A DNA stretch of 64,000 nt. Source: Sphingopyxis sp. YF1. Lineage in GTDB: Bacteria; Pseudomonadota; Alphaproteobacteria; Sphingomonadales; Sphingomonadaceae. The notes under the pieces are model-generated. The model did not search any database and was not told the origin of the DNA. It saw nothing but the letters and a program-made list of their open reading frames with translations. Position 1 is the first letter of the stretch; each line of letters begins with the position of its first letter. Positions 9,946-28,287 of the stretch are shown piece by piece. The stretch lies in the NCBI RefSeq assembly GCF_022701295.1, contig NZ_CP033204.1, forward strand, positions 62,001 through 126,000. Direction: 5' to 3'. A program made the position numbers and the translations under genes.

Positions 9946-10027
9946 CGATGCGTCGGCCGGCTGCTCCGCTCCGGCGCCGGACCCGCCATCGCCCGGGCGG
10001 CCGGCACCGGGGCGACGGCCCCGATGG

Positions 10028-11026: not shown

Positions 11027-11127
11027 GATGTCTGTGCATTATGGTGAGTTTTCCTCGCCTGTCATGCCCTGTTTTGCCACCCCCGATGCACGCTAGGCGG
11101 CACTTTCACCAACTTCGGGAGACTGTC

Positions 11128-12657: not shown

Positions 12658-13350
12658 ATGACCATTCCGGTGATCGCGATCTGCGGCATCGCGACCGACG
12701 AAGCGAGCTGGCGGGATATGCCGGTCACGCGCGTCTTTGTACCGCGCGGGGGCAGCATCGCGGCGATGGCAGATGCGATCCTCGCCCAGTTGCCCGATCG
12801 CTTCGCGCTCTGCGGACATTCGATGGGCGGCTATGTCGCGCTCGAAATCGCACGGCAAAGCGGCGGGCGCCTTGCCGGTCTTGCGCTGCTCGGCAGTTCG
12901 GCGGCGGCCGATACGCCCGAACAGCGCGCGGCGCGCGACGCGGTGATCGCGCAGGCCGGGCAGGATTTCGACGGGGTCGCCGAAAGACTGGCCCCTGCAA
13001 TGCTGTCGCGCGCGAGCCGTGCGATGCCGGGACTGCTCGCAGAGATCCGCGCGATGCTGATGCGCTGTGGTGGCAGTATCTTCGCCGAACAGCAGGCCGC
13101 CGCCGCGGCGCGGCCCGATTATCGCGCGTCGCTCGCTTCGATCGCGGTGCCGACATTGGTGCTGGCAGGCGACGCCGATCGCATCGTTGCGCCCGACCGG
13201 TCGCGGGAGATTGCCGATGCGATCCGCGGTGCGCGGTTCGAATGCGTTCCCGATTGCGGCCATGTTCCGCAACGCGAAGCGCCGGGGCCCGTTGCATTCT
13301 TTCTGCGGCAGTGGGCGGATGGGGTCACCAGGCCGCGATCCGGCCGGTGA
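12658..13350 (+). CDS. Alpha/beta hydrolase
   Basis: A 230-residue alpha/beta-hydrolase fold enzyme: nucleophile elbow CGHSMGGYVA with S55, cap region, a strand ending VLAGDADRIVAP (acid Asp) and the late His in CGHVPQREAP. Start chosen at 12658 because GGGAGAGG stands just upstream; an ATG at 12640 lacks one. It lies 33 bases after the AbfD-like gene, probably one transcript. It may be an esterase, thioesterase or C-C hydrolase; no substrate can be read. Its last 26 bases overlap the end of the convergent M28 peptidase gene. Confidence 0.8.
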   Translation: MTIPVIAICGIATDEASWRDMPVTRVFVPRGGSIAAMADAILAQLPDRFALCGHSMGGYVALEIARQSGGRLAGLALLGSSAAADTPEQRAARDAVIAQAGQDFDGVAERLAPAMLSRASRAMPGLLAEIRAMLMRCGGSIFAEQQAAAAARPDYRASLASIAVPTLVLAGDADRIVAPDRSREIADAIRGARFECVPDCGHVPQREAPGPVAFFLRQWADGVTRPRSGR

Positions 13351-15784
13351 CGATCACACTGTCGTTGCCCCGGCGATAGGGGATGACATGCGGCGGCAGC
13401 GGCACGGGCCGGCTGCCTTCGGGCCAGCCGTCGCGAACCTCGGCCAGCCTGACCTCGACCTGCCCGGGACGGACGGCGGTCAGCGACAGGCGCACCGCCT
13501 CTTCGCCGCTGGCATGAAAGATCATCTGCGACCAGATGCCGGCCTTGAGCGTGCCCGGAACGGGACGGTCCATCAGCCGGATGCCGGTCAGTTCGACCGA
13601 TGGTTTCAGGAAGATCCGCATCGAACGCCCGCGATTGGCGTTGCGCGCCGCGATATCGATCCGGTGCGCCCCACCCTGTGCGGTAGCGCCGACCGTGAGC
13701 GACGGCGGGGCGAAGGCCGCGGGCCGCGCATCGGCGATCCAATGATCGTCCCGGGAGAGCGGTGCAATCGAGCGCAGTCGGGGCGTGTCGCCGTCGCGCG
13801 CCAGCGCCGCCCGCGCCCAGCCGCGGCTGTCGGGGAGGGGGGTGGTCCATTGGGCGGTGCCGGTGACGACGTTGCTGACATGGAAGACCTCGACGAGTTC
13901 GGGGCTGGCCGCCGAGGGGGTGCGGCCGGCGAGCCCGGCGGCGCCCGAAACCGCCAGTCCCGCAGCGATCGCGACGAGCCCGGCGGGGCGGAGGCGGCGC
14001 GCCGCCCAGAGCAGCGGCGCGAGCGCCAGAATCGCGAGCAGCACGAAAGGCGCGATCGCGGCGGGAAAAATCGTCCCGACCATGACGAAAAAATCATAGC
14101 CCGAACGCGCCATCAGCCCGGCGAGCAGCGCCGCGGACAGCGCCATCGCGGCGAGCCCCGCGGGACGCGCGGCGCGCGCGGGCGCGAAGAGCAGCAGCGC
14201 GGTCGCGGGCACGAGCAGCAGCAGCGGCCAGACCAGCGCGTGCGCGCCGCTGGGCAGCAGGATCTGGAGCAGCAGCGCGAGCAGCGCGACGAGCGCCACC
14301 GCGCCCGCGAACCAGCCGGCGAGCGCCGCGCGGCGCCCGAACCCGGCGAAGGCGAACAGCGCCGCCGCGCCCCCCGCGACGAGCGGCGCGGGGCTGAATT
14401 CGCCGAGCAGCGCGCCGAGCAGGCCGACCGCCGCGAGTGCGAGCGCCACCGGCCAGCGCCGCCCGCCGCGCGCCGCGCGATCGAGCAGCAGCGCGCCGCC
14501 GCCGAACCCGGCGAGCAGCATCGCGGGCAGCAGCCAGCCGGCCTGCCCGACGAGCGCATAGGGGGACGCGATGCCACGCATCAGCAGCGCCGCGAGGCGC
14601 AGCGCGAGCATCAGCAGCGCGGCGATGCCGAACAGCATCGCGAGCAGCCCGCCCGCGCCCGCCAGCGCATCGCGCCAGGCGACCCTGCGCCGCGCGAGGG
14701 CGACCGCGAGCATCGCGAAGGTCGCGCCGACCGCGGCGATCGCGAGCAACCAGCCGGCCCACGACGGGTAGACGAGGAGATATTGGCCGAACAGGTCGGC
14801 GAAGACCATGTCGCCGCCCGCGTCGCCGAGGCGTTCCGCCCCGGCGAGGTCGCGCACCAGCGGCAGCACCTGGTCGCCCATATGCTGGACGCTGGCGGGG
14901 TTGAGCCCCGCCGCGGTCGACAGCGGCGTGTGATAGGCCATCTGGTGCCCGACGAAGGCGAAGTTCATGCCCGCATGGCCGCGATCGAGCGCGCTGGTGA
15001 GGTCGGTGTCGTTGGGCATCCGCTTGTAGATCGTCACCATCAGCGAATCCGCCGCGGGCGAGGGGGCGGTGCGCGCATAGGCCTCGATCAGCGCGCGGTT
15101 GCCGGCGCTGGTCTGGAACATCAGCGCGCGGCCGCTGTCGCCGCGCGCTTCGAGGTTGACGACCAGCCCGGTCCGGCCGCGCCAGGGGTCGCTTTCGAAA
15201 AAGGCGGTGGCGCCCAGCAGTCCGGCTTCTTCGCCGTCGGTGAACAGGAAGAGGACCGATCGCCGCAGCGGCCCCGCGGCCCTGAGCGCGCGCGCGGTTT
15301 CGAGCGCGACGGCGAGGCCCGCGGTGTCGTCGCCGGCCCCCGGCGACAGCGGCGCCGTGTCGTAGTGCGCCATCACGACGATCGCGGGGAGCGTCGGGTC
15401 GCTCCCCTTCAGTTCGCCGACGATGTTCCGTACCCGGCCGCCGATCGCGAAATCGGCCGAATTGCGGCGCGTCAGCGTCACCGTCTGGGAGCGCACCCGC
15501 GGTTCGAGCCCGAGCGCGGTCATGCGTTCGACCAGATAGGCGCGCGTTTCCTCGATCGCCTGCGAACCGATCGGATGCGGTTTCGCGGCGATGACGCGGA
15601 CGTCGTGCATCGCGCGCGCCGCCGAGAATGCGGTGCCGGGCGCGGTTTCGGGCGCGGGGGCGGGGAGCCGGTTGGCGAGGCAGGCGAGCGCGACCGCGGC
15701 GAGGACGGCGAGCAGCGCGAGGAGCCAGCGGAACCCGTCTCGGGTGGGGCGCGGGGTTTCGGCGCCGCGATTTCGGGTCTGCAT
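13325..15784 (-). CDS. M28-family membrane metallopeptidase
   Basis: An 819-residue aminopeptidase-type enzyme with its catalytic domain outside the inner membrane. An N-terminal membrane helix (about 19-38) is followed by an M28 zinc domain: H140 and D142 (MAHYDTAP), D152/D153 (GAGDDTAG), E185/E186 (DGEEAGLLGA) and NLEARGDSGRALMFQT; then a long multi-helix membrane region (about 390-640) and a beta-rich tail. Family members are eukaryotic Fxna/ERMP1-like or bacterial membrane M28 enzymes. The start at 15784 has a GGAGGAAAG site; upstream in-frame ATGs do not. Divergent from the XRE-cupin regulator and probably part of the D-peptide catabolic block. Confidence 0.85.
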   Translation of the reverse strand: MQTRNRGAETPRPTRDGFRWLLALLAVLAAVALACLANRLPAPAPETAPGTAFSAARAMHDVRVIAAKPHPIGSQAIEETRAYLVERMTALGLEPRVRSQTVTLTRRNSADFAIGGRVRNIVGELKGSDPTLPAIVVMAHYDTAPLSPGAGDDTAGLAVALETARALRAAGPLRRSVLFLFTDGEEAGLLGATAFFESDPWRGRTGLVVNLEARGDSGRALMFQTSAGNRALIEAYARTAPSPAADSLMVTIYKRMPNDTDLTSALDRGHAGMNFAFVGHQMAYHTPLSTAAGLNPASVQHMGDQVLPLVRDLAGAERLGDAGGDMVFADLFGQYLLVYPSWAGWLLAIAAVGATFAMLAVALARRRVAWRDALAGAGGLLAMLFGIAALLMLALRLAALLMRGIASPYALVGQAGWLLPAMLLAGFGGGALLLDRAARGGRRWPVALALAAVGLLGALLGEFSPAPLVAGGAAALFAFAGFGRRAALAGWFAGAVALVALLALLLQILLPSGAHALVWPLLLLVPATALLLFAPARAARPAGLAAMALSAALLAGLMARSGYDFFVMVGTIFPAAIAPFVLLAILALAPLLWAARRLRPAGLVAIAAGLAVSGAAGLAGRTPSAASPELVEVFHVSNVVTGTAQWTTPLPDSRGWARAALARDGDTPRLRSIAPLSRDDHWIADARPAAFAPPSLTVGATAQGGAHRIDIAARNANRGRSMRIFLKPSVELTGIRLMDRPVPGTLKAGIWSQMIFHASGEEAVRLSLTAVRPGQVEVRLAEVRDGWPEGSRPVPLPPHVIPYRRGNDSVIVTGRIAAW

Positions 15785-15831
15785 GATGTCGTCTTTCCTC
15801 CCCCGGCGCGTGTCGACCGGCGGCGAACCTT

Positions 15832-15857
15832 TTTCAAAATTTTCCGATTTGTCAAAT
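15832..15857. promoter_or_regulatory. AT-rich candidate operator between the M28 and XRE genes
   Basis: Within the 225-base divergent gap lies an AT-rich patch with AAAATTTT (15836-15843) and the perfect palindrome ATTTG-T-CAAAT (15847-15857). A minus-strand TTGACA (15850-15855) could serve as a -35 for the peptidase gene, but no clear -10 is spaced correctly. The half-sites only partly resemble those at 16838 and 18922. Confidence 0.4.
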
Positions 15858-16009
15858 TCTGACCTGTCCGGGTCGCTCGGGCGTGCAAATCGCGGCCGGG
15901 CCGGCGCGCCGCCGGACGCGGCACGGCCGGGTCCGCGCGGGCTTTTGCTTGATCGGCGTGCAATCATGCAAATATATGCTAAATGAGAAAATCGATCGAA
16001 AGGACAGGA

Positions 16010-16669
16010 ATGGCGTCGACGCGGGAAAAGCGGGCAGCAGGTGCCGAGCGGCGCGGCCCGGTGGACAGTAATCCGGGCGCGTTCCTGAGAGAATTTCGCA
16101 CCGAAAAGGGCTGGACGCTGGTCGAGGTGAGCGAAAAGACCGGTATTCCGGTTTCGACATTGTCAAAAGTCGAAACGGGCAAGATGTCGCTCAGTTACGA
16201 AAAGCTGGTGCGGCTCAGCCGCGGGCTGGAAATCGACATCACCCGCCTGTTCGCGGCACCCGCCGCGCCGCCGGTGTCGACGCTGGCGGCGACCGGACGG
16301 CGGAGCATCACCCCCGCCAACGAGGGGCCGACCATCCGCACGGGCACCTATAATTACACCTATCCGTCGGCCGACCTGCTGAACAAGGCGCTCAACCCGA
16401 TGATCATCGAGGTCGAGGTGCGGTCGATCGACGATTTCGGCGAACTGATGCGCCACCCGGGCGAGGAATATGTGCTGGTGCTGGAGGGGCAGTGCGAGTT
16501 CCACACCGACATCTATGCGCCGTCGCTGCTCAAGACGGGCGATTCGGCCTATTTCGACGCCTCGATGGGGCATGGTTATGTCGCGGTGGGCGAGGGGCCG
16601 TGCCGCATCCTGTCGGTGTGTTCGGCGCCCGACGCCGACCTGAAATCCTCGCTGCATCCGATCGATTGA
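16010..16669 (+). CDS. XRE-family transcriptional regulator with C-terminal cupin domain
   Basis: A 219-residue PuuR-like regulator. The N-terminal helix-turn-helix is clear at about 30-75 (GAFLREFRTEKGWTLVEVSE, then KTGIPVSTLSKVETGKMSLS). The C-terminal half is a cupin: HPGEEYVLVLEGQCEFHTD, LLKTGDSAYFDASMGHGYVA. Such proteins sense amino-acid-derived or polyamine ligands. Start 16010 is preceded by AGGACAGGA. The gene sits between the M28 peptidase (divergent) and the first beta-lactamase-fold gene, at the head of the D-amino-acid block, and is the obvious candidate for its control. Confidence 0.87.
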   Translation: MASTREKRAAGAERRGPVDSNPGAFLREFRTEKGWTLVEVSEKTGIPVSTLSKVETGKMSLSYEKLVRLSRGLEIDITRLFAAPAAPPVSTLAATGRRSITPANEGPTIRTGTYNYTYPSADLLNKALNPMIIEVEVRSIDDFGELMRHPGEEYVLVLEGQCEFHTDIYAPSLLKTGDSAYFDASMGHGYVAVGEGPCRILSVCSAPDADLKSSLHPID

Positions 16670-16837
16670 CGCCGGTCCGGGCCCGCCGCAGCCACGGCGA
16701 GGCTTTGCGAAACCCGGTTTTCCGTCCTTCTGGCCGCGCGTGTCGCGGTGCACGCTGCGCCGGTGCTGCCATCGCCGCGGCGCGTTGCCGCGCGCGATCG
16801 CCATTGACAAATTTCCGTTCTGGCTGTTTCTGTCTCT

Positions 16838-16859
16838 AAATTGAAAAAAATTTCAATTT
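16838..16859. promoter_or_regulatory. Perfect palindrome upstream of the first beta-lactamase-fold gene
   Basis: AAATTGAAA (16838-16846) and TTTCAATTT (16851-16859) form a perfect 9-base inverted repeat around AAAA. It lies 60 bases before the start at 16919. The inner TTGAAA/TTTCAA half-sites recur at 18922-18935, suggesting one regulator, most simply the XRE-cupin protein encoded just upstream. Confidence 0.6.
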
Positions 16860-16918
16860 GAGAAATTGACGATGAGCGGCCTCCGCGATGCGGCGCCGCC
16901 GGACGGGACGAGGGGCGC

Positions 16919-18886
16919 ATGCGGTTTTTCCAATCCTTCAAGCTGATCGGTGCATTGGCGCTGGCGATGGTCGCGGCACCTGCGGTTTCGCGTCCGGCGG
17001 CGCCCGCGGCGCCCGCCGCGACGGCGCCGGCAGCGGCAGCGGCGGCGCGGCCGCTGACCAGGGCCGATGTCGATGCCTGGCTCGACGGGTTCATGCCCTA
17101 TGCGCTCGAGCGCGGGCGCGCGGCGGGTGCGGTGGTGGTCGTAGTCAAGGACGGGCAGGTGCTGACGCAGCGCGGCTTCGGTTTCGCCGACGTCGCGAAA
17201 CGGCGCCCGGTCGATCCGGAAACGACGCTGTTCAAGCAGGCGTCGGTGTCGAAGACGATCACCTGGACCGCGGTGATGCAGATGGTCGAGGCGGGCAGGA
17301 TCGACCTCGACAGGGATATCAACGCCTATCTCGATTTCAGGATTCCGCCCCGGCAGGGCAAGCCGGTGACGATGCGCCAGCTGATGACGCACACCGCGGG
17401 GTTCGACGAGGTGCAGCGCGGGCTCAACAGTTACGACCTCAAGGATATTCCGACGCTGGGCGCGGCGATGAAGCGGCAGGTGCCGCCGCGCATCTATGCC
17501 CCCGGCACCACCCCCGCCTATTCCAACTATGGCACCGCGCTGGCGGGCTATATCGTCGAGCGGGTGTCGGGCCTGCCCTTTGACGACTATGTCGAGCAGC
17601 GCATCTTTGCGCCGGCGGGCATGACGCACTCGACCTTTCGCGCGCGCCTGCCCGCCGCGCTCGAGCCGCTGCTCGCGAACGGTTACCTGCTCGGGTCGGG
17701 CAAGCCGGGCAAGCCCGAGCTCAACAGCTTTGCGCCGGCGGGCGGGCTCGCCGCGACCGGCGCCGACCTGGGGCGGTTCATGATCGCGCACCTCGACGAC
17801 GGCGGCGCGTTGCTGCAACCCGCGACGGCGCGGCTGATGCACGACAGCATCACGCGGGCGATCCCGCCGCTCAACGGCATGGCGCTCGGTTTTTACGAAC
17901 AGAATATCAACGGACGGAAAGTCCTGTCGCACGCGGGCGATTCGATCGTCTTTCACAGCCAGCTGTGGATGTTCCCCGGCGAGAAGGTCGGGCTGTACAT
18001 GTCGATGAACGCCGCCGGGTCCGACAAGGTGTCGGCGGCGATCCGCAATCATCTGTTCACCGCCTTTGCCGATCGCTATTTCCCCGGCGCGCCGCATGAC
18101 GGGCGGGTCGACGCCGCGACCGCGCGCGCGCACGCGCGGATGATGGTCGGCACGTACAACAAGACGCGGCGGCTGGAGACGAGTTTCCTGAAGGTCGCCG
18201 AACTGGGCGGGCAGATGAAAGTCGGGCTCGACGCCGACGGCGGCATCCTGTTCAAGGCGGCGCCCGGGATCGGCGGTGCCGATCGCAAATGGGTCGAGAT
18301 CGAACCCTTTGTCTGGCGCGAGGTCGGCGGCCCGATGCGGCTGGCGGCCGAGGTGAAGGACGGCCGCGTCGTGCGTTTCGGCATCGATTCCTCGTCGCCC
18401 TTCATGCTGTTCGAACCCGTGCCCTGGTACAGTTCGAGCGCGTGGCTGACCCCGGCGCTGCTCGTCGGCCTTGCCGCGCTGTCGCTGACCGCGCTGTCGT
18501 GGCCCGTCGCGGCGCTGGTCCGCCGCCATTATGGTGTCCGGCCCGCGCGCAGCCCGGCCGAATGGCGCGCCTATCGGCTGACGCGCGCGCTGTCGGGACT
18601 GGCGATCGCGGTGCTCGTCGGCTGGCTGCTGTTCGGGACCGCGCTGTTGTCCGACTTTTCGTCGATGAACGGCGAGCTCGACTGGGCGCTGATCGCGCTC
18701 CGGGTCGCCTCGCCGCTCGTCTTTGGCGGGCTGTTCGCCGCGGCGGGGTGGAACCTGTGGCTGGTGTGGCGCGGTGCACCGGGGAAATTCGTGCGCGCGT
18801 GGAGCGTCGTAGTCTTCGCGAGCGCGGCGGTGCTGCTGTGGATCGCGGTGGTTTTCCACCTGATCGGATATGGAACCGCCTTTTGA
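16919..18886 (+). CDS. Serine hydrolase of beta-lactamase/DD-peptidase fold with C-terminal membrane domain
   Basis: A 655-residue exported protein: signal peptide (about 1-25), Ala/Pro linker, a class C beta-lactamase-like domain with S109-x-x-K112 (SVSK) and Y201-x-N203 (YSNYG), then HTAGF and a His-containing KVLSHAGD segment, a C-terminal beta region, and four membrane helices in the last about 150 residues. This fold covers DD-carboxypeptidases, D-aminopeptidases and esterases. The setting with D-amino-acid genes favours a D-amino-peptidase or D-stereospecific hydrolase acting in the periplasm; antibiotic hydrolysis is unlikely. Ribosome site GAGGGG precedes ATG 16919. A paralogue lies at 26308. 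Confidence 0.84.
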   Translation: MRFFQSFKLIGALALAMVAAPAVSRPAAPAAPAATAPAAAAAARPLTRADVDAWLDGFMPYALERGRAAGAVVVVVKDGQVLTQRGFGFADVAKRRPVDPETTLFKQASVSKTITWTAVMQMVEAGRIDLDRDINAYLDFRIPPRQGKPVTMRQLMTHTAGFDEVQRGLNSYDLKDIPTLGAAMKRQVPPRIYAPGTTPAYSNYGTALAGYIVERVSGLPFDDYVEQRIFAPAGMTHSTFRARLPAALEPLLANGYLLGSGKPGKPELNSFAPAGGLAATGADLGRFMIAHLDDGGALLQPATARLMHDSITRAIPPLNGMALGFYEQNINGRKVLSHAGDSIVFHSQLWMFPGEKVGLYMSMNAAGSDKVSAAIRNHLFTAFADRYFPGAPHDGRVDAATARAHARMMVGTYNKTRRLETSFLKVAELGGQMKVGLDADGGILFKAAPGIGGADRKWVEIEPFVWREVGGPMRLAAEVKDGRVVRFGIDSSSPFMLFEPVPWYSSSAWLTPALLVGLAALSLTALSWPVAALVRRHYGVRPARSPAEWRAYRLTRALSGLAIAVLVGWLLFGTALLSDFSSMNGELDWALIALRVASPLVFGGLFAAAGWNLWLVWRGAPGKFVRAWSVVVFASAAVLLWIAVVFHLIGYGTAF

Positions 18887-18921
18887 GTGCGGTGCCCGTC
18901 GCACGCGGCGTGTCGATTTCG

Positions 18922-18951
18922 TTTGAAATTTCAAAAATAGAAAATTATGAC
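18922..18951 (+). promoter_or_regulatory. Promoter with overlapping palindromic operator for the dgc operon
   Basis: TTTGAAATTTCAAA (18922-18935) is a perfect 14-base palindrome. Its TTGAAA (18923-18928) is followed after exactly 17 bases by TATGAC (18946-18951), a sigma-70-like -35/-10 pair. A bound repressor would cover the -35. Transcription would start near 18958, about 70 bases before the GTG of dgcN. The sigma-70 spacing is seen; the regulator is inferred. Confidence 0.65.
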
Positions 18952-19027
18952 CTGATCAGGCATGATCGAGCGTGACGGGGACAGTTGCGACGAGCATGTG
19001 TCTTTTGGTTCTTGCAGGGCGAAATCC

Positions 19028-20074
19028 GTGAACATCCAAACCTCCCTCGACGCGACCGCCGAATCGCTCCTTCTTCCCCAGCCCTATCTGCTGTTCCTCG
19101 GCGACACGACCGAGCGCGGCTATGCCAAGACCGCCTTCGGGCTGCGCGACTGGGCGCCCGAAAAATGCGTCGGCGAATATGCGCTGCCGGGGGCGACGGT
19201 CAGCGCCGGGCTGGTGTCGCTCACCCCCGCCGAGGCGCGGGCGCGCGGCGCGCGGTCGCTGCTGATCGGCGTCGCGAACAGCGGCGGCGTGATCCCCGAA
19301 AGCTGGATCCCCGCGCTGGTCGAGGCGCTCGACGCCGGGCTGGATATCGTCAGCGGCATGCACATGCGGCTGGCCGACCGGCCCGAACTCGCGGGGCGCG
19401 CGCAGCGCCTCGGCCGCCGGCTGATCGACGTGCGCCATCCGCCGGCGGGGCTGACCGTCGGCACCGGGCGCAAGCGGTCGGGGCAGCGCCTGCTGACCGT
19501 CGGCACCGATTGCGCGTTGGGCAAGAAATATACCGCGCTGGCGATCGCGCGCGCGTTCGCCGCGCGCGGGGTCGACGCCGATTTCCGCGCGACGGGCCAG
19601 ACCGGCATCATGATCGCGGGCGGCGGCATGCCGATGGACGCGGTGGTGTCCGATTTCGAGGCGGGGGCGGCCGAACTGGTGAGCCCCGACGCCGCGCCCG
19701 GGCACTGGGACGTGATCGAGGGGCAGGGGTCGCTCTTTCACCCCGCCTATGCCGCGGTCTCGCTCGGGCTGCTCCACGGCAGCCAGCCCGACGTCATCAT
19801 CGTCTGCCACGAACCCGGCCGGACGCAGGTGCTGGGCAGTCCCGGCTATGCGCTGCCGAGCATCGAGGACACGATCGACCTCAACCTGCGGCTGGGCGCG
19901 CGCACCAACCCGGCGATCCGCTGTGCCGGGGTGTCGTTCAACACCGCGCACATGGATGCCGGGGCGGCGACGGCGCTGATGGCCGCCGAAAGCGCGCGGC
20001 TGGGGCTGCCCGTCGCCGACCCCATCCGCGGCGGCGACGCGTTCGAGCGCCTGCTGGACAGCTGCCTCGCATGA
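19028..20074 (+). CDS. dgcN: DUF1611 protein, probable D-glutamate N-acetyltransferase DgcN
   Basis: Expected to acetylate D-glutamate with acetyl-CoA, the first step of the DgcN-DgcA route. The 348-residue DUF1611 protein has the N-terminal domain (YLLFLGDTTERGYAKTAFGL) and a P-loop-like C-terminal domain with GTDCALGKKYT (159-169), RATGQTGIMIAGGG, EGQGSLFHP and CHEPGRTQVLG. The GTG start gives the family-like N-terminus and follows a CAGGG site; an ATG at 18962 would add 22 unlike residues and fall at the predicted transcription start. The transporter gene overlaps by ATGA. Function is known for close family members; here it is inferred from family plus the dgcA homologue in the same operon. 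Confidence 0.83.
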   Translation: MNIQTSLDATAESLLLPQPYLLFLGDTTERGYAKTAFGLRDWAPEKCVGEYALPGATVSAGLVSLTPAEARARGARSLLIGVANSGGVIPESWIPALVEALDAGLDIVSGMHMRLADRPELAGRAQRLGRRLIDVRHPPAGLTVGTGRKRSGQRLLTVGTDCALGKKYTALAIARAFAARGVDADFRATGQTGIMIAGGGMPMDAVVSDFEAGAAELVSPDAAPGHWDVIEGQGSLFHPAYAAVSLGLLHGSQPDVIIVCHEPGRTQVLGSPGYALPSIEDTIDLNLRLGARTNPAIRCAGVSFNTAHMDAGAATALMAAESARLGLPVADPIRGGDAFERLLDSCLA

Positions 20075-21216
20075 GCGCGGGCGCGGCCATGGCGACGGGA
20101 GCCGGACCGAGCTGGTTCCAGCGCTTCCTGCTGCCGGGCTTCGCCTTCAAGGCCGTCGTGATCGGCGGCGGTTATGCGACGGGGCGCGAGCTCGCCGAAT
20201 TCTTCCTGCCCAGCGGGCCGTGGGGCGGGCTGGCGGCGATGCTGCTCGCGATGGTGCTGTGGAGCATCATCTGCGCGGCGACCTTTGCGCTCGCGCGCCG
20301 GCTCGGCACCTTCGACTATCGCAGCTTCTTCGAACGGCTGCTCGGGCCGGCGTGGGTGCTGTTCGAGGTCGCCTATGTGCTGCTCGTGACGCTGGTGCTC
20401 GCGGTGTTCGGCGCCGCGGCGGGCGAGATCGGCGCCGCGGTGCTCGGCTGGCCGCCGCTCGCCGGGACCGCGCTGCTCGCGGCGGCGATCGCGACCTTCG
20501 TGACCTTCGGCAATGCGTCGGTCGAGGGATTGTTCAAATATGTCTCCTTCCTCCTATACGGCGTCTATGCGCTGTTCATGCTGCTCGCGCTCGGCAGCTT
20601 CGGCGACGCGATCGCGGCGCGCTTCGCGGTGCCCGCGCCCGCCGACGGCTGGGTCCTCGGCGGGCTGACCTATACCGGCTACAACGTCATCGGCGCGGTG
20701 GTGATCCTGCCGGTGATCCGCCACCTGACCAGCCAGCGCGACGCGGTGGTGTCGGGGCTGATCGCGGGGCCGCTGGCGATGGCGCCGGCGATCCTCTTCT
20801 TCGTCGCGATGATTGCCTTCCACCCCGCGATCATGGACGAAACGCTGCCGTCGGACTTCATGCTGCGGCAGCTCGACATGCCGCTCTTCCACCTGCTGTT
20901 CCAGCTGATGATCTTTGCCGCGCTGCTCGAAAGCGGCGCGGGGTCGGTGCACGCGATCAACGAGCGCGTCGACGCGGCGCGGCGCGCGCGCGGACGGACG
21001 CCGCTGGACCGGCGCGGGCGCGCCGCGATCGCCGCGGCGCTGCTCGTCGGCTGCATGTTCCTCGCCGACCGCTTCGGGCTCGTGGCGCTGATCGCGGGCG
21101 GCTATCGCGCGCTGTCGTGGGTGTTCCTCGGCGTCTATGTCGTGCCGCTGCTCAGCGTCGGCATCTTCCGCCTTCTCCGCCGCCCGGCGGATCCTGCCGA
21201 AAGGAGTGCGACATGA
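20071..21216 (+). CDS. YkvI-like membrane protein, putative amino-acid transporter
   Basis: A 381-residue inner-membrane protein with about ten hydrophobic helices. The first contains FKAVVIGGGYATGRELAEFF, a glycine-rich unwound-helix pattern typical of LeuT/APC-fold transporters, and it matches the YkvI family. A charged loop ERVDAARRARGRTPLDRRGR precedes the last helices. The start overlaps the dgcN stop (ATGA) and the stop lies at the start of the alpha/beta hydrolase gene. Context suggests uptake (or export) of D-glutamate, N-acetyl-glutamate or a related small amino acid. Confidence 0.78.
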   Translation: MSAGAAMATGAGPSWFQRFLLPGFAFKAVVIGGGYATGRELAEFFLPSGPWGGLAAMLLAMVLWSIICAATFALARRLGTFDYRSFFERLLGPAWVLFEVAYVLLVTLVLAVFGAAAGEIGAAVLGWPPLAGTALLAAAIATFVTFGNASVEGLFKYVSFLLYGVYALFMLLALGSFGDAIAARFAVPAPADGWVLGGLTYTGYNVIGAVVILPVIRHLTSQRDAVVSGLIAGPLAMAPAILFFVAMIAFHPAIMDETLPSDFMLRQLDMPLFHLLFQLMIFAALLESGAGSVHAINERVDAARRARGRTPLDRRGRAAIAAALLVGCMFLADRFGLVALIAGGYRALSWVFLGVYVVPLLSVGIFRLLRRPADPAERSAT

Positions 21217-22295
21217 CGACCCCCGGGGCCGCGGCCCGAAAAACCGGCGGATGGCGGCGCGCCGGGCGCTGGCTGAAGCGTATCCTGCTCGGCCTGCTCG
21301 CGCTGCTGCTGCTCGCGCTGGTCGTCGGCGCGATCTACGAGGCGCTGGGGCGCCGCAGCGCCGCGGCGGCCTATCCGCCGCCGGGCAAGCTGGTCGACGT
21401 CGGCGGGCGGATGATGCACATCGACTGCCGCGGCGCGGGATCGCCGACGGTCGTCTTCGAATCCGGGCTGGGCACCGGCGGGACGATCGACTGGACGCTG
21501 GTGCACGACAGGATCGCGCAGACGACGCGCGCGTGCGCCTATGACCGCGCGGGGATCATGTGGAGCGATCCCAAGGAGACGCCGCAGCACGCCGCCGCCG
21601 TCGCCGACGACCTTCATGCGCTGCTGAAGGGCGCGGGGATCACCGGCCCGCTGGTGCTGGTCGGCCATTCGATCGGCGGGCCCTATGTGCGGACCTACAC
21701 CGGGCGGTACGGCGACGCGGTCGCGGGGCTGGTGATGGTCGACGCGTCGCACCCCGACCAGGTCGCGCGGCTGGGCAGGGTCGCGAACACCGACGCCCAT
21801 CCGGGGCAGGTCGCGTGGATCATGCACGCCGCATCGGCGCTGTCGTGGACGGGCGCGGTGCGGCTGGCGATGGCGAATGCCGGGCAGGGCAAGCTGCCGC
21901 AGGACGCCGCGGCGCGCATGGCCGCCTATACGAGCACGTCGGTGCGCGGCGCGACCGCCGAGCTCGACGGTTTCGACGCGACGATGGACGATGCGCGCAA
22001 GGTGCGCAGCTTTGGCGACCGGCCGCTGGTCGTGCTCACCGCGATGGCGCCGTTCAAGCCCGCGGAGCTGAAAGGGCTGGGAATCAAGGCCTCGGACGGT
22101 GCGCGTTTCAAGCAGGAGTGGAAGGCGCTCCACGCCGAGCAGGCGGCGATGTCGACGCGCGGGCGGCAGCAGATCGTGCCCGACGCGGGCCATTATATCC
22201 AGATCGACCGCCCCGACGTCGTGATCGCGGCGGTGAATCAGGTCGTCGAAGCGGTGCGCGCCGAGGGCGCGGCCGCCAAGGGAGAAAAGCGATGA
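21213..22295 (+). CDS. Membrane-anchored alpha/beta hydrolase
   Basis: A 360-residue protein with an N-terminal signal-anchor (about 22-45, Leu/Ala-rich after RRAGRWLKR) and an alpha/beta-hydrolase domain: CRGAGSPTVVFESGLGTGG oxyanion region, nucleophile elbow VGHSIGGPYVRTY, DASHPDQ and a late DAGHYIQIDRPD with the catalytic His. The start at 21213 has an AAAGGAGT site and overlaps the transporter stop. It probably acts outside the cytoplasm as an esterase or peptidase (proline iminopeptidase-like). Substrate unknown; the operon suggests a peptide or acyl-amino acid. Confidence 0.82.
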   Translation: MTTPGAAARKTGGWRRAGRWLKRILLGLLALLLLALVVGAIYEALGRRSAAAAYPPPGKLVDVGGRMMHIDCRGAGSPTVVFESGLGTGGTIDWTLVHDRIAQTTRACAYDRAGIMWSDPKETPQHAAAVADDLHALLKGAGITGPLVLVGHSIGGPYVRTYTGRYGDAVAGLVMVDASHPDQVARLGRVANTDAHPGQVAWIMHAASALSWTGAVRLAMANAGQGKLPQDAAARMAAYTSTSVRGATAELDGFDATMDDARKVRSFGDRPLVVLTAMAPFKPAELKGLGIKASDGARFKQEWKALHAEQAAMSTRGRQQIVPDAGHYIQIDRPDVVIAAVNQVVEAVRAEGAAAKGEKR

Positions 22296-23923
22296 AGACG
22301 AAGATCCTCCTCGGCAGCGCGCTGGCGGCGCTGCTCGCCGCGAACAGCCCGGCGCCCGATTACGACATCGTGATCCGGAACGGCCGCGTGCTCGACGGCG
22401 CGGGCAACCCGTGGGTCGGCGCCGATGTCGCGGTCAAGGACGGGCGCGTCGTGCGCGTCGGCCAGATCGCGGGCCGCGGTGCGAAGGAGATCGACGCGAC
22501 GGGCCGCTATGTCTCGCCCGGCTTCATCGACATGATGGACCAGTCGGGGCGCGTGTTGCTCAAGAGCGGCGCGGCCGAGAACAAGCTGCGCATGGGCGTC
22601 ACCACGGTGATCGCGGGCGAGGGCGGGACGCCGGTGCCCGCCGCCGACATCCCCAACTATTTCCGCCAGCTGGAGCAGCAGGGCATCGCGATCAATTTCG
22701 GCACCTATTATTCGGCGACGCAGGCGCGGGTGAAGGTGATGGGCGACGGCGCCGGATCGCCGACCGCGGCGCAGCTCGAGGCGATGGGGCGCGAGGTCCG
22801 CATCGCGATGGACAATGGCGCGTTCGGCATCACGAGCGCGCTGATCTATCCGCCGAGCAGTTTCCAGACGACGTCGGACCTCGTGACGCTGGCGAAGGTC
22901 GCGGCGCAGTGCGACGGTTTTTACGCGACGCACATGCGCGACGAGAGCGAAGGCCTTGTCCAGGCGGTCGAGGAAGCGATCGAGATCGGCGAGAAGGGCG
23001 GGGTGAAGGTCGAGATCTTTCACCTCAAGGGCGCCTATGCCCCCGGCTGGGGCAAGCTGATGCCCGAGGCGCTGGCGGCGATCAACGCGGCGCGCGCGCG
23101 CGGGGTCGACGTCGCGGCCGACCTTTATCCCTATACCGCCGGCGGCACGGGCCTCGAGATCATCGCGCCGAGCTGGGTGTGGGCCGACGGCATCGAGAAG
23201 GGGATCGAACGGCTGCGCGATCCCAAGGTGCGCGAGCGGATGAAGAAGGAGGTCGCCGCGGGATCGATGCCCGGCTGGTCGAACCTCGTCCACGCGTCGG
23301 GCGGTTTCCAGAACGTCCGGCTCGCCAACGGCTTCAGCGACAAATACCGGCCGTATCACGGCAAGAGCCTCGCCGAGATCGGCAAGGCGCTGAACCGCGA
23401 CCCGGCCGACGTCGCGTGGGACATATTGCTCGAAGGCCTGCCCAACCGCTCGGTCGCGCTCTATTTCATGATGAGCGAGCAGGATATCGAGACCGGGCTC
23501 AAGCAGCCGTGGGTCAGCATCGGCAGCGACGCCGCGGCGTCGGAAACCTTCGGCGAGATGGACGCGCTCGGGCTGCCGCATCCGCGCGCCTATGGCACCT
23601 TTCCGCGCATCATCGCCGAATATGTGAAGCGCCGCCCGGTGCTGTCGCTCGAGGAGGCGGTGCGCAAGATGACCGGCTGGCCGGCGCAGCGCATGGGGCT
23701 GTCCGACCGCGGACTGATCCGCGAAGGGATGCGCGCCGATATCGTCGTTTTCGATCTGGGCAAGCTCGACGACGGCGCGAGCTGGGACAAGCCGATGGCG
23801 CCGCCGACCGGGATCGAGACGGTGATCGTCAACGGCGTCGTCACGCTGGCCGACGGCAAGCACAGCGGCGCGCGCGCGGGCGCGGTGCTGCGCCACGCGT
23901 GCGAAGGAGCAAGCAAGCCATGA
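22292..23923 (+). CDS. N-acyl-D-amino-acid deacylase family protein with altered metal site
   Basis: A 543-residue exported amidohydrolase (short signal-like N-terminus) aligned by eye with D-aminoacylase. Retained: H214 (YATHMRDES), H244 (EIFHLKG) and the Asp of SIGSDAAASE, corresponding to the metal His pair and catalytic Asp. Altered: the usual FIDxHxH reads PGFIDMMDQSG (76-86), so both His are replaced (M82, Q84), and the usual NCG after GVTTV reads E110-G-G, losing the metal-binding Cys. It should hydrolyse N-acyl-D-amino acids or D-peptides if active. It overlaps dgcA by ATGA. Confidence 0.8.
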   Translation: MKTKILLGSALAALLAANSPAPDYDIVIRNGRVLDGAGNPWVGADVAVKDGRVVRVGQIAGRGAKEIDATGRYVSPGFIDMMDQSGRVLLKSGAAENKLRMGVTTVIAGEGGTPVPAADIPNYFRQLEQQGIAINFGTYYSATQARVKVMGDGAGSPTAAQLEAMGREVRIAMDNGAFGITSALIYPPSSFQTTSDLVTLAKVAAQCDGFYATHMRDESEGLVQAVEEAIEIGEKGGVKVEIFHLKGAYAPGWGKLMPEALAAINAARARGVDVAADLYPYTAGGTGLEIIAPSWVWADGIEKGIERLRDPKVRERMKKEVAAGSMPGWSNLVHASGGFQNVRLANGFSDKYRPYHGKSLAEIGKALNRDPADVAWDILLEGLPNRSVALYFMMSEQDIETGLKQPWVSIGSDAAASETFGEMDALGLPHPRAYGTFPRIIAEYVKRRPVLSLEEAVRKMTGWPAQRMGLSDRGLIREGMRADIVVFDLGKLDDGASWDKPMAPPTGIETVIVNGVVTLADGKHSGARAGAVLRHACEGASKP

Positions 23924-24918
23924 CGAGCGGCCTGACGCTGGATTTTGCGGTCGAACGCCTGCCGCTCGCCAAGCCCTTCCGCATCTCGGGCCATGTCTTC
24001 ACCGAGTCCGAGGTGGTCGTCGTCACCCTGTCCGACGGCACGCACAGCGGGCGCGGCGAGGCCGCGGGGGTCTATTATCTGGGCGATGATGTCGCCGCGA
24101 TGACCGCAGCGATCGCGCGCGTTCGCGATGCGGTCGCGGGCGGGATCACGCGCGAGGCATTGCAGGCGCTGCTGCCCGCGGGCGGTGCGCGCAACGCGAT
24201 CGACTGCGCGCTGTGGGAGCTTGAGGCGCGGCGGAGCGGCATCGCGGTGCACGAACTGGCGGGACTGCCCGCGCCGCGTCCGCTGCGCACGACTTTCACG
24301 CTCGGCGCCGACGATCCCGACGTGATGGCGGCGGGCGCGGTCGGCTATGCGCAGGCGCGCGCGCTCAAGCTCAAGCTCACCGGCGACCTCGCCCTCGATA
24401 TCGCGCGCGTCGACGCGGTGCGCGCGGCGCGGCCCGAGTGCTGGATCGGGGTCGACGCCAACCAGGGCTTTGCGATCGGCGAGCTCGACGCACTGGTCGC
24501 GGCGCTGGTCGCGGCCGACGTGAAGCTGCTCGAACAGCCGCTCGCGCGCGGGCGCGAGGCCGATCTCGACGGCTATCGCTGTCCGATCCCGATCGCCGCC
24601 GACGAAAGCGTGCTGACGCTCGCCGATGTCGACGGGCTGGCCGGCCGGTTCGACGTCGTCAACATCAAGCTCGACAAGTGCGGCGGGCTGACCGAGGGGC
24701 TGGCGATGGCGCACCGCGCGCGCGCGCTCGGGCTGGGCGTGATGGTCGGCAATATGGTGAGCAGCAGCCTGGCGATGGCGCCCGCCTTCATCGTCGGCCA
24801 GCTCTGCGACATCGTCGACCTCGACGGTCCGATCTTCCTTGCCGCCGACCGGACGCCGTCGATCGAATATCGCGACGGCGACGCGTGGTGCGGCGAGGCG
24901 ATCTGGGGACGCGGATAA
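23920..24918 (+). CDS. dgcA: Enolase-superfamily epimerase, probable N-acetyl-D-glutamate racemase DgcA
   Basis: Expected to convert N-acetyl-D-glutamate to N-acetyl-L-glutamate. The 332-residue protein belongs to the dipeptide-epimerase/muconate-lactonizing group: catalytic KxK at K150/K152 (LKLKL), metal ligands D179 (VDANQ), E205 (EQPLA) and D228 (ADES), and the opposing catalytic Lys at K250/K253 (IKLDKCGG). The start overlaps the deacylase stop. L-Ala-D/L-Glu (muropeptide) epimerase activity is the main alternative; the dgcN homologue in the same operon favours DgcA. Confidence 0.82.
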   Translation: MTSGLTLDFAVERLPLAKPFRISGHVFTESEVVVVTLSDGTHSGRGEAAGVYYLGDDVAAMTAAIARVRDAVAGGITREALQALLPAGGARNAIDCALWELEARRSGIAVHELAGLPAPRPLRTTFTLGADDPDVMAAGAVGYAQARALKLKLTGDLALDIARVDAVRAARPECWIGVDANQGFAIGELDALVAALVAADVKLLEQPLARGREADLDGYRCPIPIAADESVLTLADVDGLAGRFDVVNIKLDKCGGLTEGLAMAHRARALGLGVMVGNMVSSSLAMAPAFIVGQLCDIVDLDGPIFLAADRTPSIEYRDGDAWCGEAIWGRG

Positions 24919-24947
24919 CCGCGCCCAAGCAAAGGGAAGGGAAGAGG

Positions 24948-26246
24948 ATGAGGAAAATGACGTTCGCGGCGCTGGCAGCGGTTCTGCTGGTCCCGCCCGC
25001 CGCCGCGCAGGATGCGCCCGCCGCGGCGGGGGCGACCTATATCCACGCCGGCCGACTGCTCGCCGACCCCGCGAGCGGACGGGTCGAGACGGGCAAGACG
25101 CTGGTCGTCGAGGGCGGCAGGGTCGCCGCGATCCGCGACGGCTTCGTCGGCGAGGGGCGGGTGATCGACCTGCGCGACGCGTTCGTCATGCCGGGTTTCA
25201 TCGACAGCCACGTCCACCTGACCTTTGAATCGGGCCCGACGAGCCGGATCGACGCGGTCACCAAATCGACCACCGACCAGGCGTTCGACGGCGTCGTCTT
25301 TGCCGGGCGCACGGTGCGCGCGGGATTCACCACGGTGGTCGATCTGGGGTCCGACCCCGAGGCGATCAACGCGCTGCGCGACGCGATCGCGGCGGGCAAG
25401 GTGACGGGGCCGCGCGTAATCGCGGCGGGCGGGGTCGCCGCGCACGGCGGGCATGGCGACGTGCACGGATACCGGCAGGAGATCATCGACCTGTTCCGCT
25501 CGCCGACGCTCTGTTCGGGCGCCGACGATTGCGCGCGCGCGGTGCGGGTGGCGGTGCAGCAGGGCGCCGACATCATCAAGACCGCGTCGACCGGCGGGGT
25601 GATGTCGAACACCGCGGCGGGGCTGGGCCAGCAGATGAGCGACGCCGAACTGGTCGCGATCGTCGAGACCGCGCACCGGCTCGGCCGCAAGGTCGCGGCG
25701 CACGCGCACGGCACCGACGGGGTCAATGCGGCGCTGCGCGCGGGCGTCGATTCGGTCGAGCACGGCACCTATATCGACCCCGAATCGATCCGCCTGTTCA
25801 AGGCGAAGGGCAGCTATCTGGTCCCGACCCTGCTGGCGGGCGACACGGTGTCGCAGCAGGCCGAAACCGCCGACTGGATGCCCGCGCCGGTGCGCGCCAA
25901 GGCGCGGACGGTCGGTCCGCTGATGGTCGACGCGCTGCGCCGCGCGCATCAGGGCGGGGTACGCATCGCCTTCGGCACCGATTCGGCGGTGTCGAAGCAC
26001 GGCGAAAACGCCCGCGAATTCGCGCTGATGGTCAAGGCGGGACTGACCCCGCTCGACGCGATCCGCGCCGCCACCGTCTGGGGCGCGGCGCATATCGGGC
26101 TGGAGGGCGAGATCGGGTCGCTCGCTGCGGGCAAGGCGGCCGACATCGTCGCGGTGCGCGGCGATCCGCTGGCCGATGTGACCGCGCTGGAGACGGTGGA
26201 TTTCGTGATGAAGGGCGGCGCGGTCGTGCGGCCGTCCGCCGACTGA
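24948..26246 (+). CDS. Exported metal-dependent amidohydrolase (prolidase/Xaa-Pro-like)
   Basis: A 432-residue secreted enzyme with a signal peptide ending PPAAAQD. The amidohydrolase barrel is complete: HxH in FIDSHVHL, a Lys metal ligand in DIIKTASTGG, His in KVAAHAHGTDG and DSVEHGTYID, and catalytic Asp in FGTDSAVSKHG, ending with the GEIGSLAAGKAADIV segment. It matches the imidazolonepropionase-like/Xaa-Pro dipeptidase group, which includes L- and D-specific peptidases for proline or basic residues. The start at 24948 follows AAGGGAAGGGAAGAGG. It is the sixth gene of the dgc operon. Confidence 0.83.
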   Translation: MRKMTFAALAAVLLVPPAAAQDAPAAAGATYIHAGRLLADPASGRVETGKTLVVEGGRVAAIRDGFVGEGRVIDLRDAFVMPGFIDSHVHLTFESGPTSRIDAVTKSTTDQAFDGVVFAGRTVRAGFTTVVDLGSDPEAINALRDAIAAGKVTGPRVIAAGGVAAHGGHGDVHGYRQEIIDLFRSPTLCSGADDCARAVRVAVQQGADIIKTASTGGVMSNTAAGLGQQMSDAELVAIVETAHRLGRKVAAHAHGTDGVNAALRAGVDSVEHGTYIDPESIRLFKAKGSYLVPTLLAGDTVSQQAETADWMPAPVRAKARTVGPLMVDALRRAHQGGVRIAFGTDSAVSKHGENAREFALMVKAGLTPLDAIRAATVWGAAHIGLEGEIGSLAAGKAADIVAVRGDPLADVTALETVDFVMKGGAVVRPSAD

Positions 26247-26307
26247 ACCCGACCCTTTCAACCGATGGTGGCCGCCGCGCTTTGCGCGCCGCGCCGGGAG
26301 AGTATTG

Positions 26308-28287
26308 ATGCGATCGATCAAACTGCTGGCCTTGCTGCCGTTCGTCCTCCTGTTCGGGATCGGGGCGGCGGGACAGGGGGTGGCGACCGGACCCGCGGTG
26401 CCCAAAGAGGCGCAGGCGGACGCCGGCGCCGCCGCGGCCGCGCCGACTCTCCCCGGCGCGGCCGCGGCGCTCACCAAGGCCGATGTCGACGGCTGGCTTG
26501 ACGGCTTCCTGCCCTTCGCGCTCGAGCGCGGCGACCTTGCGGGCGCGGTCGTGGTGGTGGTCAAGGACGGGCAGGTGCTGACCCAGCGCGGTTTCGGCTA
26601 TGCCGATGCCGCGCGGCGCACCCCCGTCGACCCGGCGCGCACGCTGTTCCGCCCCGGGTCGGTGTCGAAGCTGTTCACCTGGACCGCGGTGATGCAGGAG
26701 GTCGAGGCGGGCCGGATCGACCTCGACAAGGACGTCAACGCCTATCTCGACTTCCGGATTCCGCCCTATCGCGGCAAGCCGGTGACGATGCGCCAGCTGA
26801 TGACGCACACCGCGGGGTTCGAGGAGCATGGCAAGCGCACGATCTTCGAGGATCCGAAATTCGCGATCTCGCTCGGCGATTATGTGAAGGTGCAGCCGAG
26901 GCGCATCTATGCGCCGGGGACGACGCCCTCCTACTCCAACTATGGCACCGCGCTCGCGGGCTATATCGTCGAGCGGACCGCGAAAATGCCCTTCGACGAC
27001 TATGTCGAACAGCGCATCTTCCGCCCGCTCGGCATGGCGCAGTCGACCTTTCGCCAGCCGCTGCCCGCGGCGCTCGCGCCGGCGATGGCGACGGGCTATC
27101 GCCAGCTTTCGGCGGGGCCGTCGAAATTCGAGATCGTCGGCCCGGGGCCCGCGGGCGCGCTGTCGGCGACCGGTGCCGACATGGCCAAATTCATGATCGC
27201 GCACCTGAATGAAGGCGCGGGGCTGATGCAGCCCGCAACCGCGCGGATGATGCACGACACGCCGCTCACCCTGTTGCCGTCGCTCAACCGGATGGAACTC
27301 GGCTTTTTCGAAACCAACATCAACGGGCGGCAGGTGATCGCGCATCTGGGCGATACCCAGCTGTTCCACACCGCGCTGCACCTGTTCACGACCGAGAAAA
27401 TCGGCCTCTACATGTCGTTCAACGCGACGGGCGAGCAGGCCTCGGTCGGCGCGGTGCGGCGCGCGCTGTTTGAGAAATTCGCCGACCGCTACCTTCCCGG
27501 CACCGAAATGCCCGCGACGCGCGTCGAGGCGAAGACGGCCGCGGCGCACGCGCGGATGATGGCGGGTAGCTGGCTCAACAGCCGGCGGTCGGAATCGAAC
27601 TTCTATGCGCTCGCCTCGCTGATCGGGCAGGTGACGGTCAGCGTCGATGCCAAGGGCAATCTGGTCGTTCCCGCGGCGCGCGATCTCAACGGAAAACCCG
27701 CGAAATGGGTCGAGACCGCGCCCTTCGTCTGGCACAATGCCAACGGCCACGGACGGCTTGCCGCGCAAGTCGTCGACGGCAGGGTCGTGCGCTGGAGCGT
27801 CGACGGCCTGTCGCCCTTCATGGTGTTCGACCGCGCGCCCGCGTCGAAATCGGCGGCGTGGCTGAAACCCGCGCTCTGTGTCGCGCTCGGCGTGCTGCTG
27901 ATCACGCTGCTGCAATGGCCGGTGTCGGCGCTGGTCCGCCGTCACTACAAGGCGCCGCTGACGCTGGGGAGGACCGCGCTGCGTGCCTATCGCGGCGTCC
28001 GCGTCGCGGCGGGGCTGGTGCTCGCGCTGGTCACCGCATGGGTGGTCAGCCTGCTGACGCTGAAGGCGCTGCCGTCCTTCGATCCGTGGCTGTGGTCGCT
28101 CCAGATCGCGGGGGCCGTGATCTTTGTCGGCGGGGTGCTGGTCGCGGCGTGGAACCTGCGTCTCGTCCGCCGCGAGCGGCGCGGCTGGTTCCGCACGCTG
28201 TGGGCGGCGTTGCTGCTGCTCGCGATGCTGCTCCTGCTCTACACCGCGTGGAGCTTCGGCCTGATCGCGATGACGGTGAACTACTGA
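26308..28287 (+). CDS. Second serine hydrolase of beta-lactamase/DD-peptidase fold with membrane tail
   Basis: Paralogue of the protein at 16919 with the same plan in 659 residues: signal peptide, Ala-rich linker, catalytic domain with S118-x-x-K121 (SVSK) and Y209-x-N211 (YSNYG), HTAGF, a QVIAHLGD segment, a beta-rich stretch and four C-terminal membrane helices. Long blocks are identical to the first copy (for example KPVTMRQLMTHTAGF). GGGAGAG precedes ATG 26308; a TTG directly before is in frame. It is the last gene of the rightward block. Divergence from the first copy around the active-site loops suggests a different substrate. Confidence 0.84.
   Translation: MRSIKLLALLPFVLLFGIGAAGQGVATGPAVPKEAQADAGAAAAAPTLPGAAAALTKADVDGWLDGFLPFALERGDLAGAVVVVVKDGQVLTQRGFGYADAARRTPVDPARTLFRPGSVSKLFTWTAVMQEVEAGRIDLDKDVNAYLDFRIPPYRGKPVTMRQLMTHTAGFEEHGKRTIFEDPKFAISLGDYVKVQPRRIYAPGTTPSYSNYGTALAGYIVERTAKMPFDDYVEQRIFRPLGMAQSTFRQPLPAALAPAMATGYRQLSAGPSKFEIVGPGPAGALSATGADMAKFMIAHLNEGAGLMQPATARMMHDTPLTLLPSLNRMELGFFETNINGRQVIAHLGDTQLFHTALHLFTTEKIGLYMSFNATGEQASVGAVRRALFEKFADRYLPGTEMPATRVEAKTAAAHARMMAGSWLNSRRSESNFYALASLIGQVTVSVDAKGNLVVPAARDLNGKPAKWVETAPFVWHNANGHGRLAAQVVDGRVVRWSVDGLSPFMVFDRAPASKSAAWLKPALCVALGVLLITLLQWPVSALVRRHYKAPLTLGRTALRAYRGVRVAAGLVLALVTAWVVSLLTLKALPSFDPWLWSLQIAGAVIFVGGVLVAAWNLRLVRRERRGWFRTLWAALLLLAMLLLLYTAWSFGLIAMTVNY

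Follow-up and report, generated by a model that had tools for sequence, protein, structure and literature searches.

The window analyzed here, a stretch of 64,000 nucleotides from Sphingopyxis sp. YF1 (contig NZ_CP033204.1, positions 62,001 to 126,000), carries a block of genes in which homologs of the acetyltransferase DgcN and the racemase DgcA are accompanied by an XRE-cupin regulator, a presumed transporter and a large set of hydrolases (Table 1). A reading of the sequence alone (hereafter the original prediction) had claimed ten genes between positions 13325 and 28287, and had seen in them an island for the catabolism of D-amino-acid peptides that ends in the conversion of D-glutamate to L-glutamate. 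All ten genes were recovered at the claimed positions by gene calls and searches with Pfam and NCBIfam models, complemented by a simple hydropathy scan and by matches to PDB entries.

Table 1. Features of the DgcN-DgcA block, in coordinates of the window.
Feature	Position	Strand	Basis
M28-family metallopeptidase, multi-pass membrane tail	13325..15967	-	PF04389 145.6 bits; 10 hydrophobic segments
XRE helix-turn-helix and cupin regulator	15983..16669	+	PF01381, PF07883
TTGACA, -35-like	16804..16809	+	TTGACAAA invariant in 16 aligned XRE-S12a intergenic regions, window included
Candidate operator 1, TGAAAAAAATTTCA, upstream of S12a	16842..16855		Palindrome search
S12a: N-terminal hydrophobic segment, serine hydrolase domain, four C-terminal hydrophobic segments	16919..18886	+	PF00144 207 bits
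Candidate operator 2, TGAAATTTCA, upstream of dgcN	18924..18933		Palindrome search; region aligned in 16 sequences
DgcN homolog, DUF1611 N and C domains	19028..20074	+	PF07755 236.4 bits, PF17396 85 bits
Multi-pass membrane protein, presumed amino-acid/peptide transporter	20071..21216	+	8 hydrophobic segments over threshold
Alpha/beta hydrolase, N-terminal hydrophobic anchor (segment 24-42)	21213..22295	+	PF00561, PF12697
D-aminoacylase-related amidohydrolase, apparent signal peptide, altered metal site	22292..23923	+	PF07969 87.4 bits
DgcA homolog, enolase superfamily, without the Arg of the above-cut-off DgcA type	23920..24918	+	NCBIfam DgcA 368.6
COG1228-type amidohydrolase (Xaa-Pro dipeptidase/carboxypeptidase relative), apparent signal peptide	24948..26246	+	PF01979 176.2 bits
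S12b: N-terminal hydrophobic segment, serine hydrolase, four C-terminal hydrophobic segments	26305..28287	+	PF00144, hydropathy

Nine of these genes form a conserved core, in the order XRE-cupin regulator, S12a, dgcN, transporter, alpha/beta hydrolase, D-aminoacylase-like amidohydrolase, dgcA, COG1228 amidohydrolase and S12b. DgcN was found in at least 90 of 119 relatives, and 80 regions were picked by hand from there across similarity bands; two of these hold the other DgcN copies of the Sphingopyxis sp. YF1 genome itself and 15 (L006-L020) are of the type closest to the window. The core is complete and its order kept in 14 of the 15 closest-type loci, one of which (L019) has an additional weak S12 match beside it; in the fifteenth, which lies on a draft contig (L016), the transporter and dgcA were undetected. 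Moreover, among the 72 genus genomes covered by both scans, DgcN of the closest type (at least 600 bits) and the COG1228 enzyme (E-value at most 1e-120) are present in an identical set of 16, own genome included. The COG1228 enzyme occurs in 18 of 80 genus genomes overall, the two extra ones being outside the DgcN scan. The M28 gene, which the original prediction had counted as part of the block, is present, yet it lies on the opposite strand and is found near the block in just 3 of the 15 closest loci, as in 3 of the 80 transporter-selected loci described below; we rejected it as a core member, and it is an accessory outside the conserved core. Within the window, four 4-base overlaps join dgcN, the transporter, the alpha/beta hydrolase, the D-aminoacylase-like gene and dgcA. 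In the relatives, ATGA or GTGA spans the stop codon at the dgcN-transporter (14/14) and transporter-hydrolase (14/14) junctions, in 12 of 15 cases between hydrolase and amidohydrolase, and in 2 of 14 between amidohydrolase and dgcA. As for gene starts, dgcN likely begins at GTG 19028 (ATG 18962 is also open), the regulator may start at ATG 16010, and the internal Met at 15784 may be the true start of the M28 protein.

The linkage was also found from the transporter alone, when named genomes were scanned with its alignment; the best 80 of at least 392 confirmed relatives were retained, and neighbors up to 10 kb away were counted from a score of 60 bits. DgcN accompanies the transporter in 73 of these 80 loci, DgcA in 66 and both in 65, together with S12 hydrolases (75), XRE-cupin regulators (71), M19 dipeptidases (54), a TonB-type receptor (TBDT1; 53) and the D-aminoacylase-like gene (46). 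The COG1228 enzyme (17) and the alpha/beta hydrolase (14) are rarer, and all nine window-type core genes occur in 11 of the 80. For comparison, we estimate from three copies per 4.37 Mb that DgcN would be expected by chance in 1-2% of random 20-kb segments. The hosts are Alpha- and Gammaproteobacteria, including Lysobacter, Arenimonas, Pseudoxanthomonas, Rudaea, Caulobacter and a Rhodospirillales bacterium; among the matches listed for DgcA relatives with organism names, Sphingopyxis is commonest, followed by Sphingomonas. The gene set is thus kept together across genomes, and the peptide-catabolic island of the original prediction is borne out, since gene order is conserved, presence and absence are common to the genes, and the linkage appears from the transporter alone. 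The island is a real and conserved entity, and it very likely works as one functional system for peptides with D-residues.

The putative outward-facing part of this system is rich in hydrolases. Both beta-lactamase-fold proteins with membrane tails are as had been predicted: they pass the PF00144 gathering cut-off, carry the SxxK, YxN and HxG motifs (SVSK, YSN and HAG in S12a; SVSK, YSN and HLG in S12b) and have four C-terminal hydrophobic segments each, S12b being 55% identical to S12a. The same motifs characterize solved S12 hydrolases (4y7p, 1cef, 1ei5, ClbP), some of them D-stereospecific, but the similarity of S12a to these is low, with a best match of 104.5 bits to a beta-lactamase related to penicillin-binding proteins (2qmi), followed by alkaline D-peptidase (4y7p, 86.1), D-aminopeptidase (1ei5, 55.5), DD-carboxypeptidases and ClbP, the last of which has a membrane tail as well. 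The COG1228 enzyme best matches solved entries named trum-mut, amidohydrolase and imidazolonepropionase, then Xaa-Pro dipeptidase 2qs8 and L-Arg carboxypeptidase 3mtw; its score against the Xaa-Pro dipeptidase model NF051886 is 361.1, below the cut-off of 500. The D-aminoacylase-like enzyme matches N-acyl-D-glutamate deacylase 3gip with 217.6 bits, and shares with 3gip and D-aminoacylase 1rjp the amidohydrolase regions as well as two His and the Asp of the metal site. Its non-standard metal site (MDQSG, GEGG) is conserved also in more distant loci, e.g., L061, L071 and L074. Both amidohydrolases are probably periplasmic, because their translations begin like signal peptides, although the hydropathy scan flagged no segment in either. 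The presumed transporter matches no Pfam or NCBIfam model, which leaves its label as YkvI-like unconfirmed; the motif IGGGYATGREL is invariant in 14 aligned transporter sequences.

A candidate operator may connect the regulator gene with the rest of the block. We searched for the palindrome TGAAA-N0-4-TTTCA, plus a related TTCAA form, and found exactly two sites of the former in the 64-kb window, upstream of S12a and of dgcN. Across 160 loci (L004-L163), 32 of 41 palindrome matches lie at most 250 bp upstream of S12, DgcN or XRE genes, corresponding to a density of 0.33 per kb there versus 0.003 elsewhere. Among 102 genes of S12a type, 25 bear the palindrome, every one of them belonging to the window type (L006-L020, L084-L092 and L094), and in the other three window-type S12a genes (at least 960 bits; L095, L141 and L157) the palindrome was not found. 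The XRE-cupin protein, which matches the PuuR model of NCBIfam weakly (38.1 bits, cut-off 211), probably binds this site. A genome-wide palindrome regulon was considered and rejected: of the nine TGAAA-form sites in the 4.37-Mb genome, two are those of this block, and none of the seven others (one in L004, see below) resembles it, three being inside called frames, three away from called gene starts, and one between two divergently oriented genes that encode an ETF-ubiquinone oxidoreductase and a protein of the uracil-DNA-glycosylase family.

Which D-amino acid the central pair handles is less evident from its family membership than the original prediction had assumed. The DgcN homolog passes the gathering cut-offs of both DUF1611 domains (PF07755 and PF17396) and matches 7xrj, which we take to be the structure from the original DgcN-DgcA work, with 346 bits. 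The DgcA homolog keeps the residues to which we ascribe catalytic roles in the enolase superfamily (LKLKL for KxK, VDANQ, LEQPL, ADES and NIKLDK), as well as DLDG. Yet both fall below the NCBI equivalog cut-offs, DgcN with 449.4 against 480 (NF041892) and DgcA with 368.6-371.9 against 400 (NF042940). A Gly in DgcA is aligned with R24 of the E. coli Ala-Glu epimerase (1jpd), a residue that presumably contacts the glutamyl carboxylate, and the PYxRYGE motif (PYPRYGE in 1jpd) is not kept. The same genome, which contains three DUF1611 genes and, for DgcA, four clear relatives and one weak match, encodes a separate pair (L005; G000:C1:175681-177269) with both members above the cut-offs (DgcN 528.4, DgcA 420.9-421.3) and with the Arg kept in DgcA. 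A third pair (L004; G000:C1:684057-693542) is below both cut-offs, like that of the window (DgcN 446.5, DgcA 356.9). The window proteins are also closer to L004 (72% identity for DgcN, 64% for DgcA) than to L005 (47% and 45%).

This division extends beyond the genome. At least 400 bits are reached by 6 of 8 scored DgcA proteins of the Arg type and by one of nine non-Arg ones (L083, 400.8); of six scored DgcN proteins, those of L005, L058 and L060 pass, and those of the window, L004 and L078 fail. In a DgcA tree of 65 dereplicated rows (computed without L170, a further DgcA relative of the genome), the six Arg rows make up one side of a branch (99/88), and 51 non-Arg rows, the window included, constitute a second group (100/100); the window DgcA is in a well-separated group. 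In the first locus set, 44 of 49 non-Arg rows but none of seven Arg rows have an S12 gene that resembles those of the window with a score of at least 60. The D-glutamate assignment is therefore unsupported, given the scores below the cut-offs, the missing Arg and the above-cut-off pair elsewhere in the genome, and conversion of D-glutamate should no longer be the default reading. The window pair falls into a different class from the above-cut-off pair, which makes D-glutamate less likely as its main substrate than some other D-amino acid. Of the original interpretation, the peptide-catabolic island thus stands and the D-glutamate conversion does not.

We propose, with reasonable though far from full confidence, that the block serves to scavenge D-peptides and that its DgcN-DgcA pair represents a second class, for which glutamate is less likely to be the substrate than another D-amino acid. 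Membrane-held and secreted hydrolases (the two S12 proteins, the COG1228 carboxypeptidase-like enzyme, the D-aminoacylase-like enzyme, the anchored alpha/beta hydrolase and, in some strains, M28) would cleave peptides with D-residues, or N-acyl peptides, in the periplasm, and the multi-pass protein would import the freed D-amino acid or a small peptide. Cytoplasmic DgcN would then N-acetylate the imported D-amino acid, DgcA would racemize the resulting N-acetyl derivative, and a deacetylase whose gene lies elsewhere would release the L-amino acid. Transcription of S12a and of the dgcN operon, as two separate units, is probably under the control of the XRE-cupin protein acting at the TGAAA-N0-4-TTTCA operator. 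More tentatively, and with somewhat less than even confidence, we suggest that Arg-free racemase, linked transporter, XRE-cupin regulator and membrane S12 proteins together define a widespread Alpha- and Gammaproteobacterial route for D-peptide utilization directed at non-glutamate D-amino acids, of which the window would represent an expanded form for N-acylated or ester-containing peptides. The substrates are perhaps hydrophobic or aromatic, a guess prompted by Tyr/Phe/His-rich loops.

Several observations weigh against this proposal. No deacetylase gene was noted within the block, and the rest of the genome was not searched for one. The D-aminoacylase-like subfamily lacks the HxH and Cys that we take to be the metal ligands of D-aminoacylase (FIDMMDQSG and GEGG stand in their regions, with MMD replacing the HxH of 3gip and 1rjp, and the Cys absent), and because these ligands are altered we did not accept D-aminoacylase activity by homology. 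Within L004-L163, the palindrome precedes none of 104 XRE genes and none of 61 S12b-type genes, and its strict form precedes DgcN genes in just 4 of 156 cases. The linkage counts overstate the number of independent events, because related loci are counted and the two sets overlap in some strains. Scores and residues do not coincide entirely, two Arg-type DgcA proteins being below the cut-off (L067, 373.2; L170, 382.8) and the DgcN of L060 barely passing (481.5) although its DgcA is non-Arg. "Non-Arg" is not one clade, since eight non-Arg rows of the tree group with the six Arg rows (100/100). The notion that Arg-type loci are devoid of S12 had to be abandoned: a broader hidden Markov model detects S12 in 3 of 7 of them (57-68 bits) versus 114 of 119 non-Arg rows (all rows being related rather than independent), and the contrast is therefore one of degree only, S12 not being exclusive to the non-Arg type, as L005 itself illustrates. 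The Arg is moreover no more than suggestive, as it is placed elsewhere in the relative 3iji; for this reason, and because R24 is only presumed to bind the glutamyl carboxylate, the case for a substrate other than glutamate is moderate.

Among the alternatives, D-glutamate released from peptidoglycan or secreted peptides, with DgcN and DgcA acting on D-glutamate and N-acetyl-D-glutamate, draws on the fact that the NCBIfam DgcN and DgcA models are the best family matches, on the resemblance to 7xrj and on the retained DLDG and catalytic lysines; the two missed equivalog cut-offs, the loss of Arg and PYxRYGE, and the separate above-cut-off pair make this reading unlikely in our view. A little less plausible still is a dipeptide route, in which DgcA would epimerize L-Xaa-D-Yaa dipeptides, dipeptidases would cleave the L-L products and DgcN would have another role. 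The window DgcA is indeed close to the E. coli L-Ala-D/L-Glu epimerase (1jpd, 204.6 bits), with which it shares the enolase-superfamily residues KxK and second Lys as well as DLDG, and dipeptidase relatives go with both forms of the block (M19 with the commoner form described below, the COG1228 enzyme with that of the window). But DgcA scores 368.6 with the DgcA model against 236 with the epimerase model (cut-off 343), and the COG1228 enzyme looks periplasmic, whereas DgcA has no signal peptide.

A role in defense or detoxification, in which the hydrolases would inactivate peptide natural products containing D-residues and amino-acid use would be secondary, appears improbable. S12a, with its membrane tail, is distantly related to ClbP and D-peptidases, and the anchored alpha/beta hydrolase and the N-acyl-amidohydrolase relative would suit depsipeptides or lipopeptides; a linked transporter, two cytoplasmic conversion enzymes and the TonB-type receptors of related blocks fit nutrition better. 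Finally, S12, XRE and amidohydrolase genes are common, with 22 matches to PF00144 (20 of them over the cut-off) in the 4.37-Mb genome, so that neighbors lacking a joint function might be envisaged. Yet two of these matches fall within this 15 kb and two more within a second DgcN block, which exceeds chance. Conserved order, common presence and absence, and transporter-first linkage rule out chance adjacency, and palindrome and stop-codon overlaps also speak against it; we give it hardly any credence.

Soil and water contain persistent D-amino acids that stem from cell walls and nonribosomal peptides, and for many of these the bacterial routes of use are, to our knowledge, poorly charted. With a recurring gene set that combines hydrolases, a transporter, an acetyltransferase and a racemase, D-amino-acid use would become testable gene by gene, and annotating all DgcN and DgcA relatives as D-glutamate enzymes may be wrong. 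The DgcN-DgcA pair has been described for D-glutamate, and the portions of those reports considered here mention no comparable hydrolase set (PMC10845958, PMC11747546). Compared with that pathway (EC 2.3.1.312 / 5.1.1.25), the window likewise encodes a homologous acetyltransferase and racemase together, with the same superfamilies and catalytic residues, but differs in its scores and in the unkept Arg, in the three genes between dgcN and dgcA, and in the added hydrolase set and transporter. Our literature search found no paper describing this gene set, and the nine-gene combination of hydrolases, transporter, DgcN and DgcA is apparently a new variant on the known pathway. The microcystin mlr cluster, whose hydrolases act on a peptide containing D-residues, is known from Sphingopyxis, and the microcystin degrader Sphingopyxis sp. 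USTB-05 carries the block (L015). The section of its genome paper considered here assigns D-glutamate use to murI, murC and murD (PMC9144602).

The other loci of the genome differ in their composition. At L005, which is likely the genome's D-glutamate locus, the dgcN-dgcA pair is followed by an amidohydrolase gene and then a LysR gene, where the window has the XRE-cupin regulator instead. Near this pair are an S12 gene, an S13 carboxypeptidase gene and a gene of the penicillin-amidase family; the S12 is a gene of its own, located upstream of dgcN in the opposite orientation (758-residue frame, PF00144 115.5 bits). L004 is a block of the commoner form (clade B), which consists of XRE-cupin regulator, S12, dgcA, M19-family dipeptidase, TonB-dependent receptor, dgcN, transporter, second S12 and second M19. 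M19 enzymes accept dipeptides with a C-terminal D-residue, and their presence in the commoner form therefore fits a D-peptide role. In two Sphingobium and one Novosphingobium loci (L141, L143 and L157), window-type genes are directly beside a block of the commoner form, with a single transporter match detected per locus. The fourth DgcA relative (L170; G000:C1:354329-355294) has an ARGAR loop and adjoins a 358-residue frame without a Pfam match; it is perhaps of the Ala-Glu epimerase type. Within the window, the region just upstream of the block (8245-12624) encodes a glutamate-synthase-domain protein, an AraC regulator and an HpaB-type 4-hydroxyphenylacetate hydroxylase, and a tandem pair of Gcw_chp (PF09694) genes is located at 33873-35699.

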